60,139 nt of DNA from an uncultured Eubacteriales bacterium. GTDB taxonomy: Bacteria; Bacillota; Clostridia; Lachnospirales; Lachnospiraceae. The DNA lies in the NCBI GenBank assembly GCA_900315425.1, contig OMZA01000011.1, forward strand, positions 1-60,139, written 5' to 3'. The notes below the pieces were generated by a model. It saw nothing but the letters and a program-made list of their open reading frames with translations. It was not told where the DNA came from and searched no databases. Every line of letters begins with the position of its first letter. The first letter of the stretch is position 1. A program made the translations under genes and the position numbers. This document shows, piece by piece, positions 257 to 45,702 of the stretch.

Positions 257-3200
257 TTATTTACTTCTGTATGCATTACTTGTTGAACCAATTACTGCTG
301 ATGGTGAATTCTTGTATGCAAGCTGAATCTGAATTGCCTCAAGTCTGTATCCATATCCTGAAGTTCCTGCAGATGCGCCATTCTTAGCCCATCCCATCCA
401 TCCAAACTTCTCAGCCTGTACTCTATAGTAGATGTCATATTTTTCTGCAAGATCACCTGTAAGTTTAATCTGAATTGCTTCAAGTCTAAGGGCTTTTCCT
501 ACTGTTCCTGATAATGCATCATCAGATACCCATTTCTGCCATCCCTTTTTCTGTACATGTGTTCTGTACTGGATGCTTCCTGAAACTCCCTTGTTGTCTG
601 CAATCTTAATTCTTATTGCTTCAAGTCTCTTAGCTTTTCCTACTGTTCCTGATGTCTGACCATTCTTAACATATGACTGCCATCCGTATGTCTGAACCTG
701 AACTCTATACTGAACTACCGGAAGTGCTGTCTTGCTATAGTATTCATTTCTTGAAGATGCTGCTACTCCTCCAGCTTCTGTTGGAGCTTCTCCATCTTTT
801 TCTACAAGAACTACCTGGATTCCTTCAAGTCTGTATCCGTATCCTGATGTACCAGCTTCTTCGTCATTTTTAGCCCATCCGAGCCATCCGAATTTCTCAG
901 CCTGTACTCTGTAGTATACATCATAGTAATCAGCAACTTTACCTGTTAATCTAATCTGGATTGCTTCAAGTCTCTTAGCTTCTCCAACTGTTCCTGATAA
1001 CTCATCATTTGCAAGGTATTCTTTTTCCCAACCATTCTTTTGTACATGAACTCTATACTCAATACCACCATTAGTTGTATCAAAATCAGTTCCGTCGCTA
1101 TTTGTTAATTTAATCTTGATAGCTTCAAGTCTAAGAGCCTGTCCTACTGTTCCTGATGTTGTACCATCTGAAACATATGATTTCTCCCAACCTGTTTTCT
1201 GAACCTGAACTTTGTAGCTTACTGAAGGTTCTTGAAGATCTTGAGGATCTTGAGCAACTATCATACATGTCAATGGAGATACATCCATTGTATCTTCAAC
1301 AGTACCAAGAACTTCTGTTCCAGCTTTATCATCCTTCGCATATACATTCCATGTTCCTGAACCCGGAAGCTCTGCTGTATATGTCTCATCTGTTGGGTTA
1401 TAAACAACAAATATTCTTGATGAATCACCATTCATACCAAGTGGTAATTCGTATGTGATTACTGTTCCATCATTTTTAATAATTGCACCTGTATCTGGAT
1501 ATTGGAATTCTTCACCAACACCTCTGAAACTTGGATGTAATTTTCTAAATGCAATAAGTCCTTTATAATATTCATATGACGTCTTATAATTATCCTCATT
1601 AAGTGTATCCCACTTAATAGAGTTCTCTGATGCAGGACTTGCATAACTGTTCTCATCAAACGATCCGTCTGACTTTACTTTTGTTCTTAAGATTTCTTCA
1701 CCAGCCTGGAAGAACGGAATACCCTGAGCTAACATAACAATTGATGCTGCTAAACTGTTCTGCTTAAGAAGTGTTTCATCATCTGCTGTAGTATTACCAT
1801 CTGTTATCTGAAGTCTGTCATACAGTGTATAGTTGTCATGACATGAGTTATAGTTAACAACTGATTGCTGTGGTTTATCATAGTTTTCCCATCCCGGAAG
1901 CGAATATAATGCATTAATAACTGCTGATGTAGAACTTGCATTTCCTGTTACATAACCAGCCTGTGTTCCAAATACGGAACCTTTAACAGCATCTCTAATT
2001 CCGTCAGAGAAAAAAGCTCCGTCCGCAATATCAGGTGCTGACGACTGATTTGCAAGCTTTGTTCCTGCCTTTGTAACTTTTGTTGACGACATATCCCAAC
2101 CTTCACCGTATACGATAATTGAAGGGTCAATCTCATGCAAAGCTGTAATTACTTCATTTATTGTATCAACATCAAAAAGACCTTCCTGATCAATTCTAAA
2201 TCCGTTAACGTGATACTCTGTTGCCCAATATACAAATGAATCAACAATGAATTTTCTATTCATTGATCTCTCTGTTGCAGTATCGTTACCACAACCGGAA
2301 GCATTTGAATTAGGTCTTGAATAATAATTAGGTGTAAGTCTGTTGATTGGGAACTGTGAAGCTGAATTAACATGACCATAAACAACGTCTAATACAACAC
2401 TGATTCCACTATCATGTAAAGACTTAACCATTTCTTTTACTTCTTTTACTCTAACTTCACCGTTGTATGGATCTGTAGAATACGAACCCTCCGGTGTGTT
2501 AAAGTTCTGAGGATCATATCCCCAGTTAAATGCATCACTTGAACCATCTTCTTTAACAGATGCATAATCAAACATTGGAAGGATATGAACATGAGTAATT
2601 CCTAAATCCTTCAGATAATCAAGACATGTTGACTGTCCGTATGAATTTGTTGTACCTTCCTCAGTAAAAGCAAGATATTTTCCTCTGTTTGCTTCAGATA
2701 CACCTGATGACTCTTCGTATGAAAAATCTTTTACATGTAATTCATAAAGAACGTCATCTGTATAATTTTCATACGGATTAGGGTTTGTATCATCTTCCCA
2801 TCCTTCAGGATCTGTAGAGTCAAGATTAATAACCATACCTCTGTTACCGTTTACACCTGTTGTTCTGGCGTATGGATCAACGATATCTTCCTGTACAACA
2901 CCTTTAACCGTAGCTGTATATGTATAGTATGTACCATTTAAATCACCATCAACAGTTGCTACCCATGTACCCTGTACGTCAGAAGTCATATCTACTACAT
3001 CAATAAGATCATCTGTTCCCTGAGTACCACTTTTGTATAAATTAACCTGAACTTTAGTTGCAAGTGGAGCCCATACTCTAAATGTTGTTGAATTTTCAGA
3101 CCATGTAGCACCAAGGTCATCTCCTTCATATGTGTATGCATCTTCAAATCCATCATATGAATATGGGTCAGGCATACCGATTAAAAATGTCAGGTTTTTC

Positions 3201-3898
3201 TGTGAACCATAATCATACACAAGTTCATAAGATCCATCTCTAACAAGAGCCTCTGCAAGCTGAATGTTAAAGTTTTTGTTTGTACTTCCTATAGGATTAA
3301 TGCTTGTTATCTCCTGGAAAGTTCCATCTTCAGTACTTCTAACTCTTAAATTAATACTTGAGATGTCGTCCATTGCAACACCAACACCAAATCTAATAAC
3401 GGAAAGATTACTTTCCTGCGCTTTAGCACTTGTAATCTTTAAGCCCTCAATGGCATCGCTGTTGTCCTGTGTAAACTCTCCTACTTTACTTTCGATATAA
3501 ACATTTACAGTTCCACCTGTAATAGAGCTGAGATCTACAAATCTGTCTGCCTCCCAGTCCTTTTTAGACCAGTCATTTCCCAGTCTTACAATAAATCCCT
3601 GTCTAAGTGTTGCTGTACTAGGAAGAACATGTTTATATGTCATCTCAGTTCCATCATCACTTAAAACCATATCATATGCTGCGCCTTCTCCGCCGCCTTC
3701 AGACCATGTGTAGAGCTGATATCCAACACCTTCAGCGCCTGTGGCGGTTAAGTCTGTTCCTGTAAAATGGAACACAATGCTAAGTGAATTTTCATCAGCA
3801 TGTGCTGTTACCGGATTAGTAAGTGTAGCACCTGCCGGAAGCACTGTTGTTACCAATAATGCAAGAGCGACTAAAAGAGCTTTTACTCTTTTACCCAT
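257..3898 (-). CDS. Secreted pullulanase (GH13) with CBM41, CBM48 and six ChW repeats
   Basis: 1213 aa. It hydrolyses alpha-1,6 branch points of pullulan, glycogen or starch outside the cell. In order: signal peptide (1-35), a CBM41-like alpha-glucan-binding domain (about 38-137), an N-terminal beta domain (150-245), CBM48 (about 260-345), the GH13 barrel (about 380-800), a C-terminal beta domain, then six ChW repeats (893-1195) in two groups of three. The NWGYDP-FN-PEGSYSTDP motif is diagnostic of pullulanases. Catalytic residues are D570 (GFRID), E599 (YGEGW) and D688 (SCHDN). Region I reads DVVYGHV rather than the usual DVVYNH. There is no LPXTG motif, so attachment presumably relies on the ChW repeats. 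A strong AAGGAGG site lies 8 nt before the ATG. The next gene upstream is a starch-binding surface protein with the same ChW module. Confidence 0.93.
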   Translation of the reverse strand: MGKRVKALLVALALLVTTVLPAGATLTNPVTAHADENSLSIVFHFTGTDLTATGAEGVGYQLYTWSEGGGEGAAYDMVLSDDGTEMTYKHVLPSTATLRQGFIVRLGNDWSKKDWEADRFVDLSSITGGTVNVYIESKVGEFTQDNSDAIEGLKITSAKAQESNLSVIRFGVGVAMDDISSINLRVRSTEDGTFQEITSINPIGSTNKNFNIQLAEALVRDGSYELVYDYGSQKNLTFLIGMPDPYSYDGFEDAYTYEGDDLGATWSENSTTFRVWAPLATKVQVNLYKSGTQGTDDLIDVVDMTSDVQGTWVATVDGDLNGTYYTYTATVKGVVQEDIVDPYARTTGVNGNRGMVINLDSTDPEGWEDDTNPNPYENYTDDVLYELHVKDFSYEESSGVSEANRGKYLAFTEEGTTNSYGQSTCLDYLKDLGITHVHILPMFDYASVKEDGSSDAFNWGYDPQNFNTPEGSYSTDPYNGEVRVKEVKEMVKSLHDSGISVVLDVVYGHVNSASQFPINRLTPNYYSRPNSNASGCGNDTATERSMNRKFIVDSFVYWATEYHVNGFRIDQEGLFDVDTINEVITALHEIDPSIIVYGEGWDMSSTKVTKAGTKLANQSSAPDIADGAFFSDGIRDAVKGSVFGTQAGYVTGNASSTSAVINALYSLPGWENYDKPQQSVVNYNSCHDNYTLYDRLQITDGNTTADDETLLKQNSLAASIVMLAQGIPFFQAGEEILRTKVKSDGSFDENSYASPASENSIKWDTLNEDNYKTSYEYYKGLIAFRKLHPSFRGVGEEFQYPDTGAIIKNDGTVITYELPLGMNGDSSRIFVVYNPTDETYTAELPGSGTWNVYAKDDKAGTEVLGTVEDTMDVSPLTCMIVAQDPQDLQEPSVSYKVQVQKTGWEKSYVSDGTTSGTVGQALRLEAIKIKLTNSDGTDFDTTNGGIEYRVHVQKNGWEKEYLANDELSGTVGEAKRLEAIQIRLTGKVADYYDVYYRVQAEKFGWLGWAKNDEEAGTSGYGYRLEGIQVVLVEKDGEAPTEAGGVAASSRNEYYSKTALPVVQYRVQVQTYGWQSYVKNGQTSGTVGKAKRLEAIRIKIADNKGVSGSIQYRTHVQKKGWQKWVSDDALSGTVGKALRLEAIQIKLTGDLAEKYDIYYRVQAEKFGWMGWAKNGASAGTSGYGYRLEAIQIQLAYKNSPSAVIGSTSNAYRSK

Positions 3899-3950
3899 TT
3901 TAAAATCCTCCTTTTAAAATAATAGTTATTAAGTTACAAACTTATCTTTA

Positions 3951-3956
3951 ATTATA
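3951..3956 (-). promoter_or_regulatory. Possible -10 box for the pullulanase gene
   Basis: TATAAT on the minus strand, about 50 nt before the pullulanase start. The hexamer 17 nt upstream (TAGATT) is a poor -35 box, so the promoter may need an activator. This is weak evidence based on motif match alone. Confidence 0.35.
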
Positions 3957-4021
3957 CTGAAAAACCTAGTAAAAATCTACAACTTTAAATAATTTAATGT
4001 TTAATTTATGTACAAAATATA

Positions 4022-4058
4022 ACAAAAAAGACCACATCCATATACATGAATGTGGTCT
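4022..4058 (-). terminator. Rho-independent terminator of the starch-binding surface protein gene
   Basis: A 9-bp perfect stem (4050-4058 with 4029-4037) followed on the minus strand by a run of six T. It lies 34 nt after the stop at 4092, so the pullulanase gene downstream needs its own promoter. Confidence 0.85.
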
Positions 4059-4091
4059 AATTTAGACTACGTTAAGTTTTCACTTTTCGTA

Positions 4092-6866
4092 TTATTTTTT
4101 TCTGTAAGCATTCTTTGTTGTTCCGATAACTCCTGAAGGTGTTCCCTTCTTAGCTACCTCAATCTGAATTGCTTCAAGTCTGTATCCATATCCTGATGTT
4201 CCTGCTGATTCGCCATTCTTAGCCCAGCCCATCCATCCGAACTTCTGAGCCTGAACTCTGTAGTAAATATCGAATTTTTCTGCAAGATCACCTGTGAATC
4301 TAATCTGGATTGCCTCAAGTCTAAGAGCCTTTCCTACTGTTCCTGATAAAGCGTCATTCTTAACGAATTTCTGCCATCCCTTTTTCTGTACATGTGTTCT
4401 GTACTCAATATCTCCAGAAACACCTCTGTTGTTAGAAATCTTAATTCTGATAGCTTCAAGTCTCTTAGCTTTTCCAACTGTACCAGATGTAGCACCTGTC
4501 TTAACATAATCCTGCCATCCGTATGTCTGAACCTGTGTTCTGTACATAACTACTGGAAGCTCTGATTTGCCGTAGAATGCATCTCTTCCTGTATCAGCTA
4601 CTCCGCCTACATTTGATGGAATCTCTTCACCTTTTTTAACAAGAATTATCTGGATTCCTTCAAGTCTGTATGCATATCCTGCTGTACCTGACTCTTCGTC
4701 GTTCTTAGCCCATCCGAGCCATCCGAATTTCTGAGCCTGTACTCTGTATGCTACATCATAGTAATTAGCAACTGTACCTGTTAATTTAATCTGGATTGCT
4801 TCAAGTCTCTTAGCTTCTCCAACTGTTCCAGATAATTCATCATTTGCTCTATATTCTTTCTCCCAGCCATTCTTCTGAACATGTACTCTGTATTCAATAC
4901 TTCCGTTAGCTGTATCAAAATCAGTTCCATCGCTATTTACTAACTTAATCTTAATAGCTTCAAGTCTGAGAGCTTGTCCTACTGTTCCTGATGTTGTACC
5001 ATTTGAAACATATTCTTTCTCCCAACCTGTCTTCTGAACCTGAACTTTGTAATTTACTGAAAGATTAGAAATCTCTTTAACATGTACATTAACTGTTTTT
5101 GAAATTGTAGAATCATATGAGTTAGTAAATGTAATTGTTGTATCACCAGCCTTAACTGCTGTTACTGTACCGGTTTCCTCATCATAAGTAGCTGAATCAC
5201 CTTCAACTGTAACTGTAATACCTGTATCAGCTAATGTTTCCGGCTCAATCTTAGCATCAATTTTATCTGTTTCACCGATAGATAATGTGATTTCATCTTT
5301 ATCTGTTGTGATTTTAAAGTTACCAAGAATCTTCTCAGCAAGTGCAAGATTACCTTTAACAAAATTAGGAAGCTTTGATTCTGATGTGTATCCACACTTC
5401 TCAAGATCTGCTGTTCTATCTTCTTTAGCATTAAGTGTATCTTCGTAGTCACCTACTGTTGCAAACTGAGCATAATCAGCTGGTGCATAATATGTCTCAT
5501 CATTGTCATTTCCTACCCAGCTCATTGTATAATTTACTAATTCATCAGGAAGTCCTAAAACTCCATCTGCATCATCTGTTTTAAAGATAAGTACAGCACC
5601 TGTTGTTGTATCATAGTAAACTGTTGCAGTATATGCTTCTTCTTCAAGTTCTGGTCTGATATTTGTAAGACAATTACTTGTTGTATCTGTTGCTTCCGGA
5701 GATACTGATGTTCCAAGTAACTGTCTGTTCCATGCACTTGTTGTCTCCGGTGTATGAGCAATTATACCAAATCTGTATGTCCACTCACCTGCAGGATTTC
5801 CTTCTTCATCTGTTGCTGCTGGTACTGAGATATTTGCTTTAACAACTCCATCCCATTTTGTTTCTTCGAATGCATTGTTCATGCTTGTTGGTGCCCAAGG
5901 TGTTTTTGCCATAGCTGCACCAATTGTATAAACTGTTGTATTTTCTTCATAGGCTACATCCTGAGCACTCTTAACTGTTGTTAATTTCTCGTTAAGAGCT
6001 GCGTTTAATGTTGCAAAATCAGGAAGAGCTGACTCTGCTGTATATCCGCACTTCTCAAGATCTGCTGTTCTGTCGTCTTTTGCACTTAATGTTGCTTCGT
6101 AATCACCTACTGTTGCAAACTGTGCGTAATCAGCTGGTGCATAATATGTTTCATCATTATCATTTCCAACCCAGCTCATTGTAATATCTACTAATCCGTC
6201 AGGTGTTGAATCAGTATCATCTGTGTCATCACCAGTCTTATAAATAGCAACCGCACCTGTTGTTGTATCATAGTAAACAACTGCTTCATATGCTTCTTCT
6301 TCAAGTGCTGGTCTTATATTTGTAAGACAGTTACTTGTTGTAGGTACTGAGATATTTGCTTTAACAACTCCATCCCACTTTGTCTCTTCAAATGCGTTTG
6401 CATAATTTGTAGGAGCCCATGCTACTGGAGCCATTGCTGATCCTAATGTATAGACTGTATCATCTGTACCTGCTACTACATCAGCTACATTAACAGATGT
6501 TAATTTTGTATTAAGATCTGCATTTAATGCTGCAAAATCAGGAAGAGCTGAATCTGCTGTATATCCGCACTTCTCAAGATCTGCTGTTCTGTCTGCTGCT
6601 GCACTAAGTGTTGCTTCGTAGTCACCTACTGTTGCAAACTGTGCATAATCAGCTGGTGCATAATATGTTTCGTCATTATCATTTCCAACCCAGCTCATTG
6701 TGATATCTACTAATTCCTCAGGTGTAGATGTTACATCATCACTGTCATCACCTACTTTGTAGATAGCAACCGCACCTGTTGTTGTATCATAGTAAACAAC
6801 TGCTTCATATGCTTCTTCTTCAAGTGCTGGTCTTATATTTGTAAGACAGTTACTTGTTGTATGTTG
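4092..6866 (-). pseudogene. Starch-binding surface protein, 3' part after a frameshift: repeats 2-4, Big_2, six ChW repeats
   Basis: This frame continues the protein that stops at 6850 but has no start of its own. The open frame upstream to 6986 is out of phase and reads as nonsense. Coding resumes at the residues TTSNCLTNIRP. It holds the end of tandem repeat 2, repeat 3 (about 5945-6465), repeat 4 (about 5320-5940), a Big_2 bacterial Ig-like domain (about 5075-5310) and six ChW repeats (about 4160-5070). Compared with repeats 1 and 4, repeat 2 has lost about 65 nt at the junction, which shifts the frame. Repeat 3 lacks about 135 nt in frame. With the 65 nt restored, the whole gene (4092-8610) would encode about 1527 aa. 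It is either a true lesion, a switchable repeat region, or an assembly collapse. Confidence 0.8.
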
Positions 6867-8610
6867 TTGCAATAATACCAAATCTGTATGTCCACTCACC
6901 TGCAGGATCTCCTGCTTCATCTGTTGCTGCTGGTACTGAGATATTTGCTTTAACAACTCCATCCCATTTTGTTTCTTCAAATGCATTATTTAAATTCTGA
7001 GGAGCCCATGCTACTGGAGCCATTGCTGATCCTAATGTATAAATTGTATCATCTGTTCCACTTACAGCATCAGCTACATTGTTTAATTTTGTTTCCAATG
7101 CATTATTTACATCTACAAAATTAGGAAGCTCTGAATCTGCTGTATATCCACATTTTTCAAGATCTGCTGTTCTGTCTGCTGCTGCACTAAGTGTTGCTTC
7201 GTAGTCACCTACTGTTGCAAACTGTGAATAATCAGCTGGTGCATAATATGTTTCGTCATTATCATTTCCAACCCAGCTGAATGTGTAATCAACTTTATCT
7301 GTTGGATATGATACAGACTCATTATCTCCGTTTTTGTAGATTGCTACAGCACCTGTTGCTGTATCAAGATATACTGTTGCTGTATATGCTTCTTCCTCAA
7401 GAGGAACTCTAATATTAGAAAGACAATTAGATGTTGTATCAGTTACTTCAGGAGCAACATCTGTTCCAATAAGCATTCTGTTCCATCCTGTAACTGTATC
7501 TGCTGTCTGAGCGATAATACCGAATCTGTATGTCCACTCACCAACTTCTTCATAATTATTTGTTCCGTCTTCGTTTTTTGTAACTTTTCCTGTATATTTT
7601 GCAGGAACAGAGATATTTGCTTTTACTACATTATCCCATTTAGTTTCAACAAAAGCATTATCTACATGATCTGGATTCCATGCTACTGGAGCCATTGCTG
7701 ATCCAAGACTGTAAACAACTTCACCCTCTTCGATATTCTCTGATATGCTATCAGGATTCTTCTGCTTTTCTGTTGTTTCTTCTTCTGTTGTTTCTTCTGT
7801 TGTCTCATCTGAAGTTGATGTCTCGTCTTCTGTTGTTGTCTCGTCTTCTCCACCTTCATTATAATCAGGTACTGACTCAACCTCATTAGCCTTATTACCA
7901 GCTACTTGATATAACTTACCTGAATCTGTCTTTGCATAACATGTAACTGTTGTACCATCATTTGTACAATAAATATCAGTTATTGTACCATCAACAGATT
8001 TAATAGCTCTTGCTGAAATTACAATATTAGCTGTCTGCTCTTTAGCTGCAAAACAAGATGATGGAACATCTGCCCAATAAGTTTTTACTTCATCAGCAGC
8101 ATCATCTGCAATTGTGTTAACTTTAATTTTTCCATCAATTGCATTTGCTTTGATGTTGTCAAGATCTGCCTGTGTAGTTGTGTCATTTGTCCAGTTATCT
8201 GCTGCATAGTTGTTGAAGATTGAAACAACACCTGATGCTGAAGGGTCTGTATATGTAGCTGTTACTTTATACCAGCTTGAATTAGATCCTCCCTCATTAT
8301 CCATTGCTGCTCCAGGCCAAACCTGTTTTACATTTTCATAAGTCTCGCCTGTGTCTTCGTCTTCAAGTGTTTCAAGTGTTTTTACAATACACTTATCCGC
8401 AGGTGAAACATTTGTTGTGAATGCATTACCTTCATAAAGCCATCCACCAACTAATTCCCACTCACTTGCGTTCTGGAAATGCCATGTTATGTCCATAGTA
8501 GTAGCTGCTTCTGCTTTAACATATTTTATGTTAGCTGCATATCCTACAAATGTACTGATTACCATTACCATAGACATAATCAAACTCAAAATTCTTTTTT
8601 GTGTCTTCAT
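6850..8610 (-). CDS. Starch-binding surface protein, 5' part: signal peptide, CBM26-like domain, Thr/Glu linker, repeat 1 and half of repeat 2
   Basis: 586 aa as it stands. A signal peptide (1-35) is followed by a domain (about 38-165) with the pattern WHFQNASEW ... VWPGAAM ... WYKVT ... IFNN. This resembles starch-binding CBM26-type modules. A Thr/Glu-rich linker (about 255-285) leads to repeat 1 of a ~185-residue unit I do not recognise as a named family; landmarks are GSAMAPVAW, NAFVETKWD, GEWTYRFGIIA, WNR-LIGT, SNCL-NIR and SWVGNDNDETYYAPADY. The frame stops inside repeat 2 just after FGIIA, because of a deletion; the rest continues in another frame (4092-6866). Start chosen at the ATG after GAAAGGAG. 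Family membership of the first domain is inferred from motif shape; binding to starch is inferred also from the pullulanase next door. Confidence 0.8.
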   Translation of the reverse strand: MKTQKRILSLIMSMVMVISTFVGYAANIKYVKAEAATTMDITWHFQNASEWELVGGWLYEGNAFTTNVSPADKCIVKTLETLEDEDTGETYENVKQVWPGAAMDNEGGSNSSWYKVTATYTDPSASGVVSIFNNYAADNWTNDTTTQADLDNIKANAIDGKIKVNTIADDAADEVKTYWADVPSSCFAAKEQTANIVISARAIKSVDGTITDIYCTNDGTTVTCYAKTDSGKLYQVAGNKANEVESVPDYNEGGEDETTTEDETSTSDETTEETTEEETTEKQKNPDSISENIEEGEVVYSLGSAMAPVAWNPDHVDNAFVETKWDNVVKANISVPAKYTGKVTKNEDGTNNYEEVGEWTYRFGIIAQTADTVTGWNRMLIGTDVAPEVTDTTSNCLSNIRVPLEEEAYTATVYLDTATGAVAIYKNGDNESVSYPTDKVDYTFSWVGNDNDETYYAPADYSQFATVGDYEATLSAAADRTADLEKCGYTADSELPNFVDVNNALETKLNNVADAVSGTDDTIYTLGSAMAPVAWAPQNLNNAFEETKWDGVVKANISVPAATDEAGDPAGEWTYRFGIIATTYNK

Positions 8611-8666
8611 TTCCTAACTCCTTTCATCATTTTTATTTTTAGGTACTTATCTCATACCGATACCAC

Positions 8667-8675
8667 ATTATAACA
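8667..8675 (-). promoter_or_regulatory. Extended -10 promoter of the starch-binding protein gene
   Basis: Minus-strand TGTTATAAT (TGn plus TATAAT) about 57 nt before the start codon. The -35 region (TAGAAT at 17 nt) is poor, as expected for an extended -10 promoter. The rest of the 8611-8876 gap is very AT-rich and shows nothing else I can support. Confidence 0.5.
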
Positions 8676-8876
8676 TATTTTCAAAATCAATTCTACCGCT
8701 GTTTTGTTAAATTTAACTATAAATGTGTTTTAATTTTGTTTTTTTTTATGTAATTATTAAACATTTTGTATATATTTAGTTTTATTTATTGTGATTTTAC
8801 ATAAAATTACACATTCAGATAATGTGTCGTTTTAAAAAAATATATATTTTTCTTTATTACTTTTCTTTGCACCCTG

Positions 8877-9407
8877 TTAAATATCTAAAATAATTGCTGA
8901 ACTATTATCAGACACATTATTTTCACACTCATATTTAAAGGTGTTTATTATCATTTCGGAATTTCTTTTCATTATGGCAGACAACTCTCTCAAGGAATAC
9001 ATATCAGATATTCCGTCTGAGCATATGAGTATTTTGTCTGATTTTTCTAATTTAATTTTATCAGCCAGTTGAAATGGAACTCCCCCACCTCCCATGAACC
9101 TGGTGAGAACATTCCATGCTTTTGTTTTCTTAGCTTTTTCTTCGTCATCTATCATGCCTTCATCTATAGCTTCCTGAGCCACTGTATGATCTTTGGTTAT
9201 CTGAGTTAAAACCCCTCTTCTAAAAAGATATATCCTGCTGTCTCCAGCCCAAAACGGATATGCAATTCCTTCCTTTATTAATAATGCTGCACAGGTGGTT
9301 CCACTTATTTCACCCGGAATAATACTTTCCATTTCTCTTTTAAAATCATCGTAATATATTTCTAAGGCTCTGTTGATATCCAATGTATCATATATGAAAT
9401 TATCCAT
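8877..9407 (-). pseudogene. PP2C-type protein phosphatase, C-terminal part after an in-frame TGA
   Basis: 176 aa in the same frame as the fragment at 9408-9647, separated only by one TGA codon that directly precedes an ATG. It carries the later PP2C motifs: WAGDSRIYLFR (GDSR), a Q-ITKDHT element, ILICSDGISDM (SDG) and a C-terminal DNSSAIIL (metal-binding Asp). No Shine-Dalgarno site precedes the ATG, so this part would be made only by readthrough or by re-initiation at the TGAATG overlap. Together the two parts give about 256 aa, the normal length of a bacterial PP2C phosphatase. It is the last gene of the Sel1/J/HIRAN/PP2C operon. Confidence 0.8.
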
Positions 9408-42921: not shown

Positions 42922-45702
42922 TTAACTGTTCAAAGCTGCCTCATATCTTGATTTAATTGCTGATAAATAGCTTTCTACTGTCTGATTTCCCTTAGTTGTA
43001 ACTACGCCGTTTGTCTCAGCAAATGCCATATCACTTGAATTATAATATGTTGGTGAACCTTCACCTAAATCCTGCTTCTTTAAAGTAACATGAGAATCCG
43101 GAATGGCTACATCTTCGTAATTCTCTTTAGCAATATTATAATATTTCTTAAAGTTATCATACTCAAGCCATCCACTGTTGTATACTTCTTTTAATGCATC
43201 CATATACTCTGTTGTATATTTATTATTTTTTCCTGTTACCGTATATAAATATACCGGACTTTGCTGTGTATTTCCCTGTAATCTTGCCTGGTCATCACGA
43301 GGACTGTAACTTGCCATATTAAGTCCTGATGTTGTAAGTCCTAAACATCTGTCATTGTCATATGGCATAAATATTGCTTTTCCTTGAGATGAGAAGTATA
43401 CATAATGATTGTTGTAATTATTTCTCAGATCATCCGGATTACCTACAAAATATGACAAAGCTGCAAACTTAACCCAAAGGTCAGTTTCTAAGACACCTTC
43501 GATTTTTTCTTTTGTAACAGATGATTTATCCATTGTATTAATAAAATTCAAGATATCTTCATGTTCAGATTTCTTTTTATTTGTTTTAAGTGTATAGATA
43601 TAATCCATACCCTCTTCTTCGACCCAAGCCGAATACTGTGTACTATTCTTATATGTAGCTCCTGACCATCCGCCGGAATCTCCATAAAGCTGACCCCATT
43701 TACATTTGTATAAATCTCCGTCTGCTTTGTTAAAGCTTCCATCGTCATATACTTCGTTTAAATATCTCTTGCAGAAAATATTATCTATCGGCTCATACAT
43801 TGTATATACGCCATAGTTATAACCGCCGAAATGAACGTTGGCAAGAGATGTATTCTGGGCATATACTCCCAAATCTCTATACATCATATTTGCATATACA
43901 TTGGCCATATATGTTGGATCTACATTTCTGTTCCACTTAAGTTCAAGAGCTTTAAGAGTTGCAAATGTTCTGTTCTTTCTGACTTTTCTGGCTGCTGATT
44001 TACCATCCCATTTTCCGGTATCATATCCATCAATACCTTCATCATCAAAAGTCTCCTGGAAACTTAATTTCAAGTGAATAGCATTTCTGTCATTTACATT
44101 GCCATTGTTATAGATATCTACTCTTGATGTATTTCCTTTAAGTCTTACACCAACTTCTTCCAAGTCATAAGAAGTTCCATCAATCGTAAATTTAACATCG
44201 GCCATTCTATAAGTTTCCTCATCTCCGGCTTTATAATCTGCTTCCATGAGTTTCAACTGTTCATCAGAAATATCTATATCCACTGTTACCTTGTTGTTAA
44301 TATCAAAGAGCTCATCATATACCTTCTCTTCAGCGATCCCAGCCTCATCTGTTGGTTCTTGTTTTTCAGTATATGTAATCTCTCCTGTGTACTTTGTAGT
44401 TTCTTCCTCTGCAGTGGTTGTTTCTTCCTCTTTCTTAGTTGTTGTCTCTTCTTCTTTCTTGGTTGTTGTCTCTTCTTCTTTCTTGGTTGTTGTCTCTTCT
44501 TCTTTCTTAGTAGTTGTCTCTTCCTCTTTCTTAGTAGTTGTCTCTTCCTCAGCTGGTGTTGTCTCTTCCTCTTGTTCATCATCTGTAGTTACAGCTGTAT
44601 CCGGTTTACCACCTTCATCAGAATAAGAGTTCTTTGTTGAACCTATAACACCTGCCGGTGTTCCTTTTTCAACCATCTGTATCTGAATTGCTTCGAGTCT
44701 ATATCCATATCCTGAAGTTCCTGCTGATGCTCCGTTCTTTGTCCAGCCCATCCAGCCAAACTTCTGTGCTTGAACTCTATAGTACACATCAAAATATTTA
44801 ACCATATCACCAGTAAGCTTAATTCTGATAGCTTCAAGTCTTAATGCCCTACCTACTGTTCCTGACAATGCATTATCACTTACCCAGTCTTGCCATCCCT
44901 GCTTCTGGACATGAGTTCTATAAGAAATGCCACCTGTATAGCCCTTCTTGTTACTGATGTATATCTTGATTCCCTCTAATCTCTTAGCTTTTCCAACAGT
45001 TCCTGATGTAGCTCTAGATGTCACATAATTCTGCCATCCATATGTCTGAACCTGAGTCTTATAGCTAACTGTAGGTGCTGCATTTTTGTTGTAAAATGCT
45101 TTGATTCCGGCTACTGTTGCTACCCCATCAGAAGTTGTTGGTGCTTTAGAGTTACCATCTTCATCTTTTGCAACAAGTACAATCTGAATTCCTTCAAGTC
45201 TAAAGCCATATCCTGCTGTACCAGCTGACTCTCCGTCTTTAGCCCAACCAAGCCATCCAAACTTCTGAGCCTGAACTCTATAGTATACATCATAGTAATC
45301 ACGAATCTCTCCGTATAACTGTATCTGTATTGCCTCAAGTCTAAGGGACCTTCCTACTGTTCCTGAAACAGCATCATCAGATACAAAATTTGATTCCCAG
45401 CCTATACTTTGAATATGAGTTTTATACTCAATTCCACCTTCGTAGTCTCCCATGTTGGCAAGCTTAATCTTTATTGCTTCCAATCTTAAGGCCTGACCTA
45501 CTGTTCCTGACGTTGCTCCATCTTTTTTATAAGATGATTCCCAGCCTTTCTTCTGTACCTGTACCTTGTAAAGTACTGAAGGGCCGTCTGCTGCATAGGC
45601 TGTATTCTTTATGTACTGTGCACTTCCTGATACAAATATACCAGTCACTAACATAGCTACAGCTATCAGCATTGATAATAGTTTCCTTTCGGACTTCATC
45701 AT
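42922..45702 (-). CDS. Surface protein: six ChW repeats plus CotH-type kinase domain
   Basis: 926 aa. Signal peptide (1-36), six ChW repeats (about 42-350) in two triplets, an acidic Thr linker of EEETTT/KK units (about 375-435), and a CotH-family domain (about 450-925). CotH motifs: VGVRLKGNTS, NYGVYTMYEPID, DGDLYKCKWG, FMPYDNDRCLG. CotH proteins are atypical protein kinases, best known from spore coat; secreted forms occur in gut Clostridia and in cellulosomal proteins. The ChW block matches those of the two starch proteins at 257-8610. Strong AAGGAGG site. It begins 24 nt after folBK with no terminator between, so it may be co-transcribed with the folate genes. Confidence 0.88.
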   Translation of the reverse strand: MMKSERKLLSMLIAVAMLVTGIFVSGSAQYIKNTAYAADGPSVLYKVQVQKKGWESSYKKDGATSGTVGQALRLEAIKIKLANMGDYEGGIEYKTHIQSIGWESNFVSDDAVSGTVGRSLRLEAIQIQLYGEIRDYYDVYYRVQAQKFGWLGWAKDGESAGTAGYGFRLEGIQIVLVAKDEDGNSKAPTTSDGVATVAGIKAFYNKNAAPTVSYKTQVQTYGWQNYVTSRATSGTVGKAKRLEGIKIYISNKKGYTGGISYRTHVQKQGWQDWVSDNALSGTVGRALRLEAIRIKLTGDMVKYFDVYYRVQAQKFGWMGWTKNGASAGTSGYGYRLEAIQIQMVEKGTPAGVIGSTKNSYSDEGGKPDTAVTTDDEQEEETTPAEEETTTKKEEETTTKKEEETTTKKEEETTTKKEEETTTKKEEETTTAEEETTKYTGEITYTEKQEPTDEAGIAEEKVYDELFDINNKVTVDIDISDEQLKLMEADYKAGDEETYRMADVKFTIDGTSYDLEEVGVRLKGNTSRVDIYNNGNVNDRNAIHLKLSFQETFDDEGIDGYDTGKWDGKSAARKVRKNRTFATLKALELKWNRNVDPTYMANVYANMMYRDLGVYAQNTSLANVHFGGYNYGVYTMYEPIDNIFCKRYLNEVYDDGSFNKADGDLYKCKWGQLYGDSGGWSGATYKNSTQYSAWVEEEGMDYIYTLKTNKKKSEHEDILNFINTMDKSSVTKEKIEGVLETDLWVKFAALSYFVGNPDDLRNNYNNHYVYFSSQGKAIFMPYDNDRCLGLTTSGLNMASYSPRDDQARLQGNTQQSPVYLYTVTGKNNKYTTEYMDALKEVYNSGWLEYDNFKKYYNIAKENYEDVAIPDSHVTLKKQDLGEGSPTYYNSSDMAFAETNGVVTTKGNQTVESYLSAIKSRYEAALNS
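44396..44570 (-). repeat. 24-bp tandem repeat coding the EEETTTKK linker
   Basis: Seven EEETTT blocks, five joined by KK, encoded by nearly identical 24-nt units (tctttcttagttgttgtctc plus cttct on the plus strand, with small changes). The unit is a multiple of three, so copy changes stay in frame and only alter the linker length between ChW repeats and the CotH domain. Confidence 0.9.

Follow-up and report, generated by a model that had tools for sequence, protein, structure and literature searches.

The minus strand of a 60,139-nucleotide stretch from an uncultured gut Lachnospiraceae bacterium (contig OMZA01000011.1 of assembly GCA_900315425.1; hereafter the window, one contig of a 2.05-Mb genome) carries at 4092-8610 a scaffold region in which a large module is repeated in tandem, next to a pullulanase gene. 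We regard the repeat as probably an X25-like starch-binding module of a divergent kind, placed in a new architecture, that of a wall-bound starch-capture scaffold. The predicted fold, family-level homology to X25 domains, conserved tryptophans, a pullulanase fusion in a congener (genome G399) and the synteny of a second locus with GH13 and CBM26 genes were computed, and from them we infer glucan binding, surface location and cooperation. These lines of evidence favor the glucan binding that a sequence-only reading of the region had suggested. That reading had also taken the module as possibly new. The repeat is real, yet its novelty is limited: most likely it forms a divergent, X25-like subfamily that ends in a helical tail.

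The tandem repeat itself was confirmed, with copies 1 and 4 identical at 66% of residues and copy 4 matching its own genome at E 5.3e-82. Structure comparison, one of the searches that the sequence-only reading had recommended, gave X25 starch-binding domains as the best matches of the predicted structure of copy 4 (Sca5 7RPY, pullulanase 2WAN and the N-domain of Amy703), and the repeat as modeled has the X25 beta-sandwich fold. The recommended search of model libraries did not name the module: no Pfam or NCBIfam model matched the window modules above its cut-off, and the window proteins had no match at E 1 to the Pfam model X25_BaPul_like (PF22058, curated score 27 bits). Relatives were collected from a second locus of the same genome, from nine genomes of the genus and from a few others of the family, and 8 of 44 family modules matched PF22058 weakly (best E 3.9e-5). 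Profile comparison of the 44 modules with seven X25 domains gave a probability of 97.3 (E 1.6e-11). Three of those seven had surfaced through the module searches; restricted to the four that the Pfam X25 model alone had turned up, the comparison gave 95.6 (E 1.2e-8). A CBM26 control scored 3.7 against the 44 modules, and X25 scored 0.3 against CBM26. The 44-member family thus shows homology to X25 at the profile level. No confident match to a family unrelated to carbohydrates was found. Among PDB sequences, the only matches of a single module were lipoproteins (E 0.12-0.13), which were set aside as chance, and the two matches of the 44-module profile, a chain named PG1 heavy chain (E 0.025) and another at 0.95, were not considered meaningful. 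Phage records gave no match, and a literature search found no paper on the module.

Candidate binding residues were read from the profile alignments. W21 of module 4 (5895-5897) fell on the first X25 tryptophan in all four comparisons. W76 (5730-5732) fell on the second when either the 44 modules or the 8 closest to the window's were compared with seven X25 domains, and a few residues off when the 44 were compared with four; it is likely, not certainly, the equivalent of that tryptophan. W21 is conserved in 42 of the 44 modules and W76 in 40, three of the four exceptions having Tyr or Phe. By chain count (offset 477), we infer that W620 and W661 of Sca5 correspond to the X25 tryptophan pair, a numbering that W555 and N564 fit too. 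In PMC9112005, mutation of the W661 equivalent in Sas20 domain 2 eliminated binding, and that of the W620 equivalent weakened it about 100-fold. N99, which lies in the landmark SNCL-NIR, aligns with a sugar-contacting Asn of Sca5. Module 4 also has two cysteines (5394-5396 and 5670-5672) in the motifs SNCL or SCCL, and KCG; all 8 close modules have this motif pair, which is missing from the other 36 listed. A disulfide linking the sandwich to the helical tail is possible, a guess from these motifs.

The gene neighborhood points to starch as well. The pullulanase next to the scaffold, as had been recognized, is of type I, with CBM48 and six ChW repeats (257-3898, minus strand; 626 bits, cut-off 504.5). 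In G399, the scaffold likewise lies upstream of the pullulanase on the same strand, and the pullulanase itself includes one module, placed after the catalytic part and before the ChW repeats. Scaffold and pullulanase were adjacent in two of the nine genomes of the genus. In the other seven the pullulanase ortholog lacks a module and finishes in a tail that is hydrophobic and positively charged; neither a module nor a CBM26 match was found beside it in stretches of 4.8-5.6 kb, nor at one further pullulanase-like gene of G397, the remaining pullulanase-like genes being unchecked. A CBM_20 match in G399 (20 bits, cut-off 23.3) had no stretch passing alone and was left unused.

At the second locus, one or more module proteins and a CBM26 protein are followed by DAGK and rpoD. 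Among 19 stretches compared, module, CBM26 and DAGK genes stood together in 9, from nine different genomes including that of the window, and a GH13 amylase gene adjoined six of these nine loci. The locus of G182 has at the GH13 position what reads from sequence as a glycosyltransferase-like gene, that of G399 had no GH13 match in the 5.9 kb upstream, and that of G400 is interrupted by a contig end. Two G400 contigs, C38 (L066) and C91 (L065), end near a module gene, with GH13 on one and CBM26, DAGK and rpoD on the other; they may be halves of a single locus. G125 belongs to another genus; there the same neighbors flank an X25 protein (E 8.5e-15) together with a CBM26 protein (59.1 bits), with other genes between. 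Beside the module genes of several genomes stands a divergently transcribed gene for a membrane-anchored-looking protein (26-29% identity; L014 8607-9362, minus strand, and L015 6123-6899, plus strand), whose version in the window's genome had no Pfam match at E 1. An L,D-transpeptidase gene (L014 10845-12311, plus strand) lies between two module genes of the window's genome, and a homologue is placed likewise in G399.

Domains with an X25-type fold could also act as spacers or have a different polysaccharide as ligand, for example a cell-wall or host glycan. Beta-sandwich domains are frequently re-used, and relatives of the module are joined in other genomes to leucine-rich repeat (LRR), choline-binding and dockerin domains. 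The conserved tryptophans, the pullulanase fusion, the presence of CBM26 in the same proteins and the GH13 amylase beside most module-CBM26-DAGK loci are at odds with that role, which we judge unlikely.

Some results weigh against a starch-capture scaffold built of X25-like modules. A terminator-like hairpin (4058-4029, minus strand) lies between the scaffold and pullulanase genes, and it is uncertain whether the two are transcribed together; the hairpin scan gave 1 site in 3600-9000 against a mean of 2.0 in shuffles, which is no excess. The surface starch-capture gene pair of the sequence-only reading is kept in part: the genes are neighbors in two genomes, but in the window the hairpin separates them and the scaffold is broken as assembled. 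In addition, the eight window-like modules alone scored 65.3 against the seven X25 domains and 7.7 against the four, the latter below the 21.0 of their CBM26 control. A profile built from eight close sequences is poor, and for the copies in the window itself the link to X25 comes from the wider family and from the fold. Because of this weak profile result, our confidence in the starch-capture explanation was lowered slightly, to the level given above. The weak result would also suit a carbohydrate-binding family of its own, without kinship to X25, as would the failure of the window modules to match any Pfam or NCBIfam model above its cut-off and the lack of a significant match when the profile was searched against PDB sequences. 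Since fold, family-level profile match and syntenic link all point to X25, we consider such a separate family very unlikely, and the X25-like identity is retained.

The scaffold had been taken as one gene, which the assembled sequence contradicts. It holds two open reading frames (ORFs) on the minus strand, ORF A at 8610-6850 (586 amino acids) and ORF B at 6986-4092 (964 amino acids). The ATG of ORF B lies inside module 2 in a different frame, with no signal peptide after it. Of the four repeats that had been described, modules 1 (7740-7075) and 4 (5957-5319) are complete. Module 2 (7063-6486) lacks 65 bp in its middle compared with copy 4 and has a frameshift at 6862/6861, and module 3 (6485-5964) lacks 135 bp at 6343/6342 with the frame kept. 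Both gaps remove the conserved tryptophan W76. The landmarks reported for the repeats hold in part: WTYRFGIIA is absent from copy 3, and where GSAMAPVAW is expected copy 4 has GAAMAKTPW. Although the gaps begin at different positions, both end at one base, the first of a 99-bp exact match between modules 2 and 3 (6861-6763 and 6342-6244); no exact repeat in the array is longer. Had two deletions arisen independently, it would be a coincidence for both to stop precisely where the best repeat begins, whereas a collapsed repeat gives this pattern naturally; the gene split and the gaps are thus most likely assembly errors. In the congener G399, a single unbroken frame of 1823 amino acids encodes a scaffold with five modules, in addition to a CBM26-like domain, Big_2 and six ChW repeats. 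There is some chance that the gene is truly broken, the deletions being real and the protein ending in module 2 at the frameshift, so that the species is losing its scaffold or strains vary. Two ORFs are what was assembled, recombination is common in tandem repeats, and one deletion copied between modules could give a common end. Against such decay stand the position of that end at the longest exact repeat with the other ends differing, the openness of ORF B over 964 codons and the intact G399 frame, and we continue with an assembly error as the working explanation.

ORF A comprises a signal-peptide-like start, a CBM26-like domain (8505-7861), a Thr/Glu-rich linker (7860-7741), module 1 and the head of module 2; the start and the linker were read from sequence, in agreement with the earlier description. 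The N-terminal domain scored 10.9 bits against CBM26 (PF16738), under the Pfam cut-off of 28.1, whereas a homologous domain in L016 scored 37.3 bits and passed it. Its predicted fold is the CBM26/25 beta-sandwich, and the domain is CBM26-like; the fold and the homologue bear out the earlier assignment, which the score of the window protein does not. A Gag_p24 match in L016 (whole-protein sum 26.7 against 24 bits) had no single stretch passing and was dismissed as an effect of repeats. ORF B comprises the tail of module 2, the incomplete module 3, module 4 (a predicted beta-sandwich followed by C-terminal helices), a Big_2 Ig-like domain (5312-5118; Pfam, E 8.5e-6) and six ChW repeats (PF07538; 5069-4095, outer limits approximate; Pfam, E 1.1e-90), as had been proposed for this end of the protein. 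Its NCBIfam matches PdpE (26.8 bits, cut-off 150) and PRK02399 (25.3 bits, cut-off 335) were partial, far under cut-off and rejected. The ChW repeats are a putative cell-wall anchor; PMC5817068 gives anchoring to the wall as predicted and the ligand as unknown. Another ChW surface protein of the window (42922-45702, minus strand) combines a CotH domain (71 bits, cut-off 23.8) with a tandem KKEEETTT linker and six ChW repeats (E 1.8e-92).

A single-module query matched 3 of 299 genomes of the family, and a ten-sequence profile matched 5 of 397, with G125 reached at E 9.4e-4; both counts include the window's own genome. That genome was the sole match in an order-wide sample (n = 295), and a sample of the phylum (n = 398) added one genome, G756 (E 7.5e-5). 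The G756 match is an X25 domain (97 bits, PF22058) in a protein that reads as a GH13 enzyme. Relatives in named records came from Lachnospiraceae or Lachnospira assemblies (seven loci). In other genomes the modules are joined to choline-binding repeats, or to dockerin and partly to LRR. Three of five such choline-binding or dockerin proteins carry a CBM26-like domain, under the Pfam cut-off and clear with the profile of the window domain. G401 encodes three module proteins with dockerin I (L058 197-4954, L059 3689-5548 and L060 6133-9474), two of which have LRR_5 and two a CBM26-like domain; these fusions hint at an amylosome-like assembly in a Lachnospiraceae.

On the starch-capture explanation, the protein would be secreted and fixed to the cell wall via its ChW repeats, displaying several X25-like modules in a row together with one CBM26-like domain. 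On each beta-sandwich an aromatic platform, formed in module 4 by W21 and probably W76, would hold an alpha-1,4-glucan chain, with N99 nearby and the helical tail following, and modules in series would provide avidity for starch at the cell surface. The adjoining wall-bound pullulanase would remove branches by cutting alpha-1,6 bonds, and the GH13 amylase encoded at the second locus would cut alpha-1,4 bonds.

The helices of Sas20 domain 1, a CBM26-like sandwich with helices, are thought to close over the bound chain. That domain was considered as a template for the whole module owing to the helical tail; it was absent among the fold matches listed, which is uninformative either way. A more tentative proposal, which we hold as possible and somewhat doubtful, is a distinct surface starch system of Lachnospiraceae, with a lineage-specific X25-derived module, a helical C-terminal extension closing over the bound chain, and interchangeable anchors (ChW, choline-binding, dockerin or membrane anchor), set beside pullulanase and amylase. 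If true, Gram-positive bacteria would have one more solution in addition to the amylosome and to single cell-bound amylases. To our knowledge, there are few descriptions of surface starch capture in rumen or gut Lachnospiraceae other than Roseburia and Eubacterium rectale. Recognition of the module as X25-like would allow the conserved locus, in which module proteins and a CBM26 protein precede DAGK and rpoD and a GH13 amylase is often present, to be annotated as a starch-capture system, and it makes this reading testable with single recombinant modules.

Compared with X25_BaPul_like domains (Ruminococcus bromii Sca5 X25-2, Sas20 domain 2 and the Bacillus acidopullulyticus pullulanase), the modules share the beta-sandwich core, an aligned tryptophan and Asn, probably the second tryptophan, tandem use in starch-binding proteins and fusion to a GH13-type enzyme. 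The window modules differ in escaping the Pfam model, in length (about 170-230 residues against 87 model positions, or the approximately 120 residues given in PMC9112005), and in having a long loop before strand 4 and a helical tail of about 50 residues. The N-terminal domain resembles CBM26 of Eubacterium rectale Amy13K and a Bacillus halodurans amylase in fold and in the landmarks HFxN..W..VG.W, WPGA and FNN, and differs in its inserts, one of about 30 residues modeled at low confidence, and in its sub-threshold Pfam score. Where Sca5 and Sas20 have cohesin, dockerin and sortase parts, the window protein has ChW repeats; neither dockerin nor cohesin, the modules expected of an amylosome component, matched the window proteins at E 1 in Pfam. 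The likeness that we propose to the R. bromii amylosome (Sca5, Sas20) and to Bacteroides SusE/SusF lies in the serial arrangement of noncatalytic starch-binding domains near GH13 enzymes.
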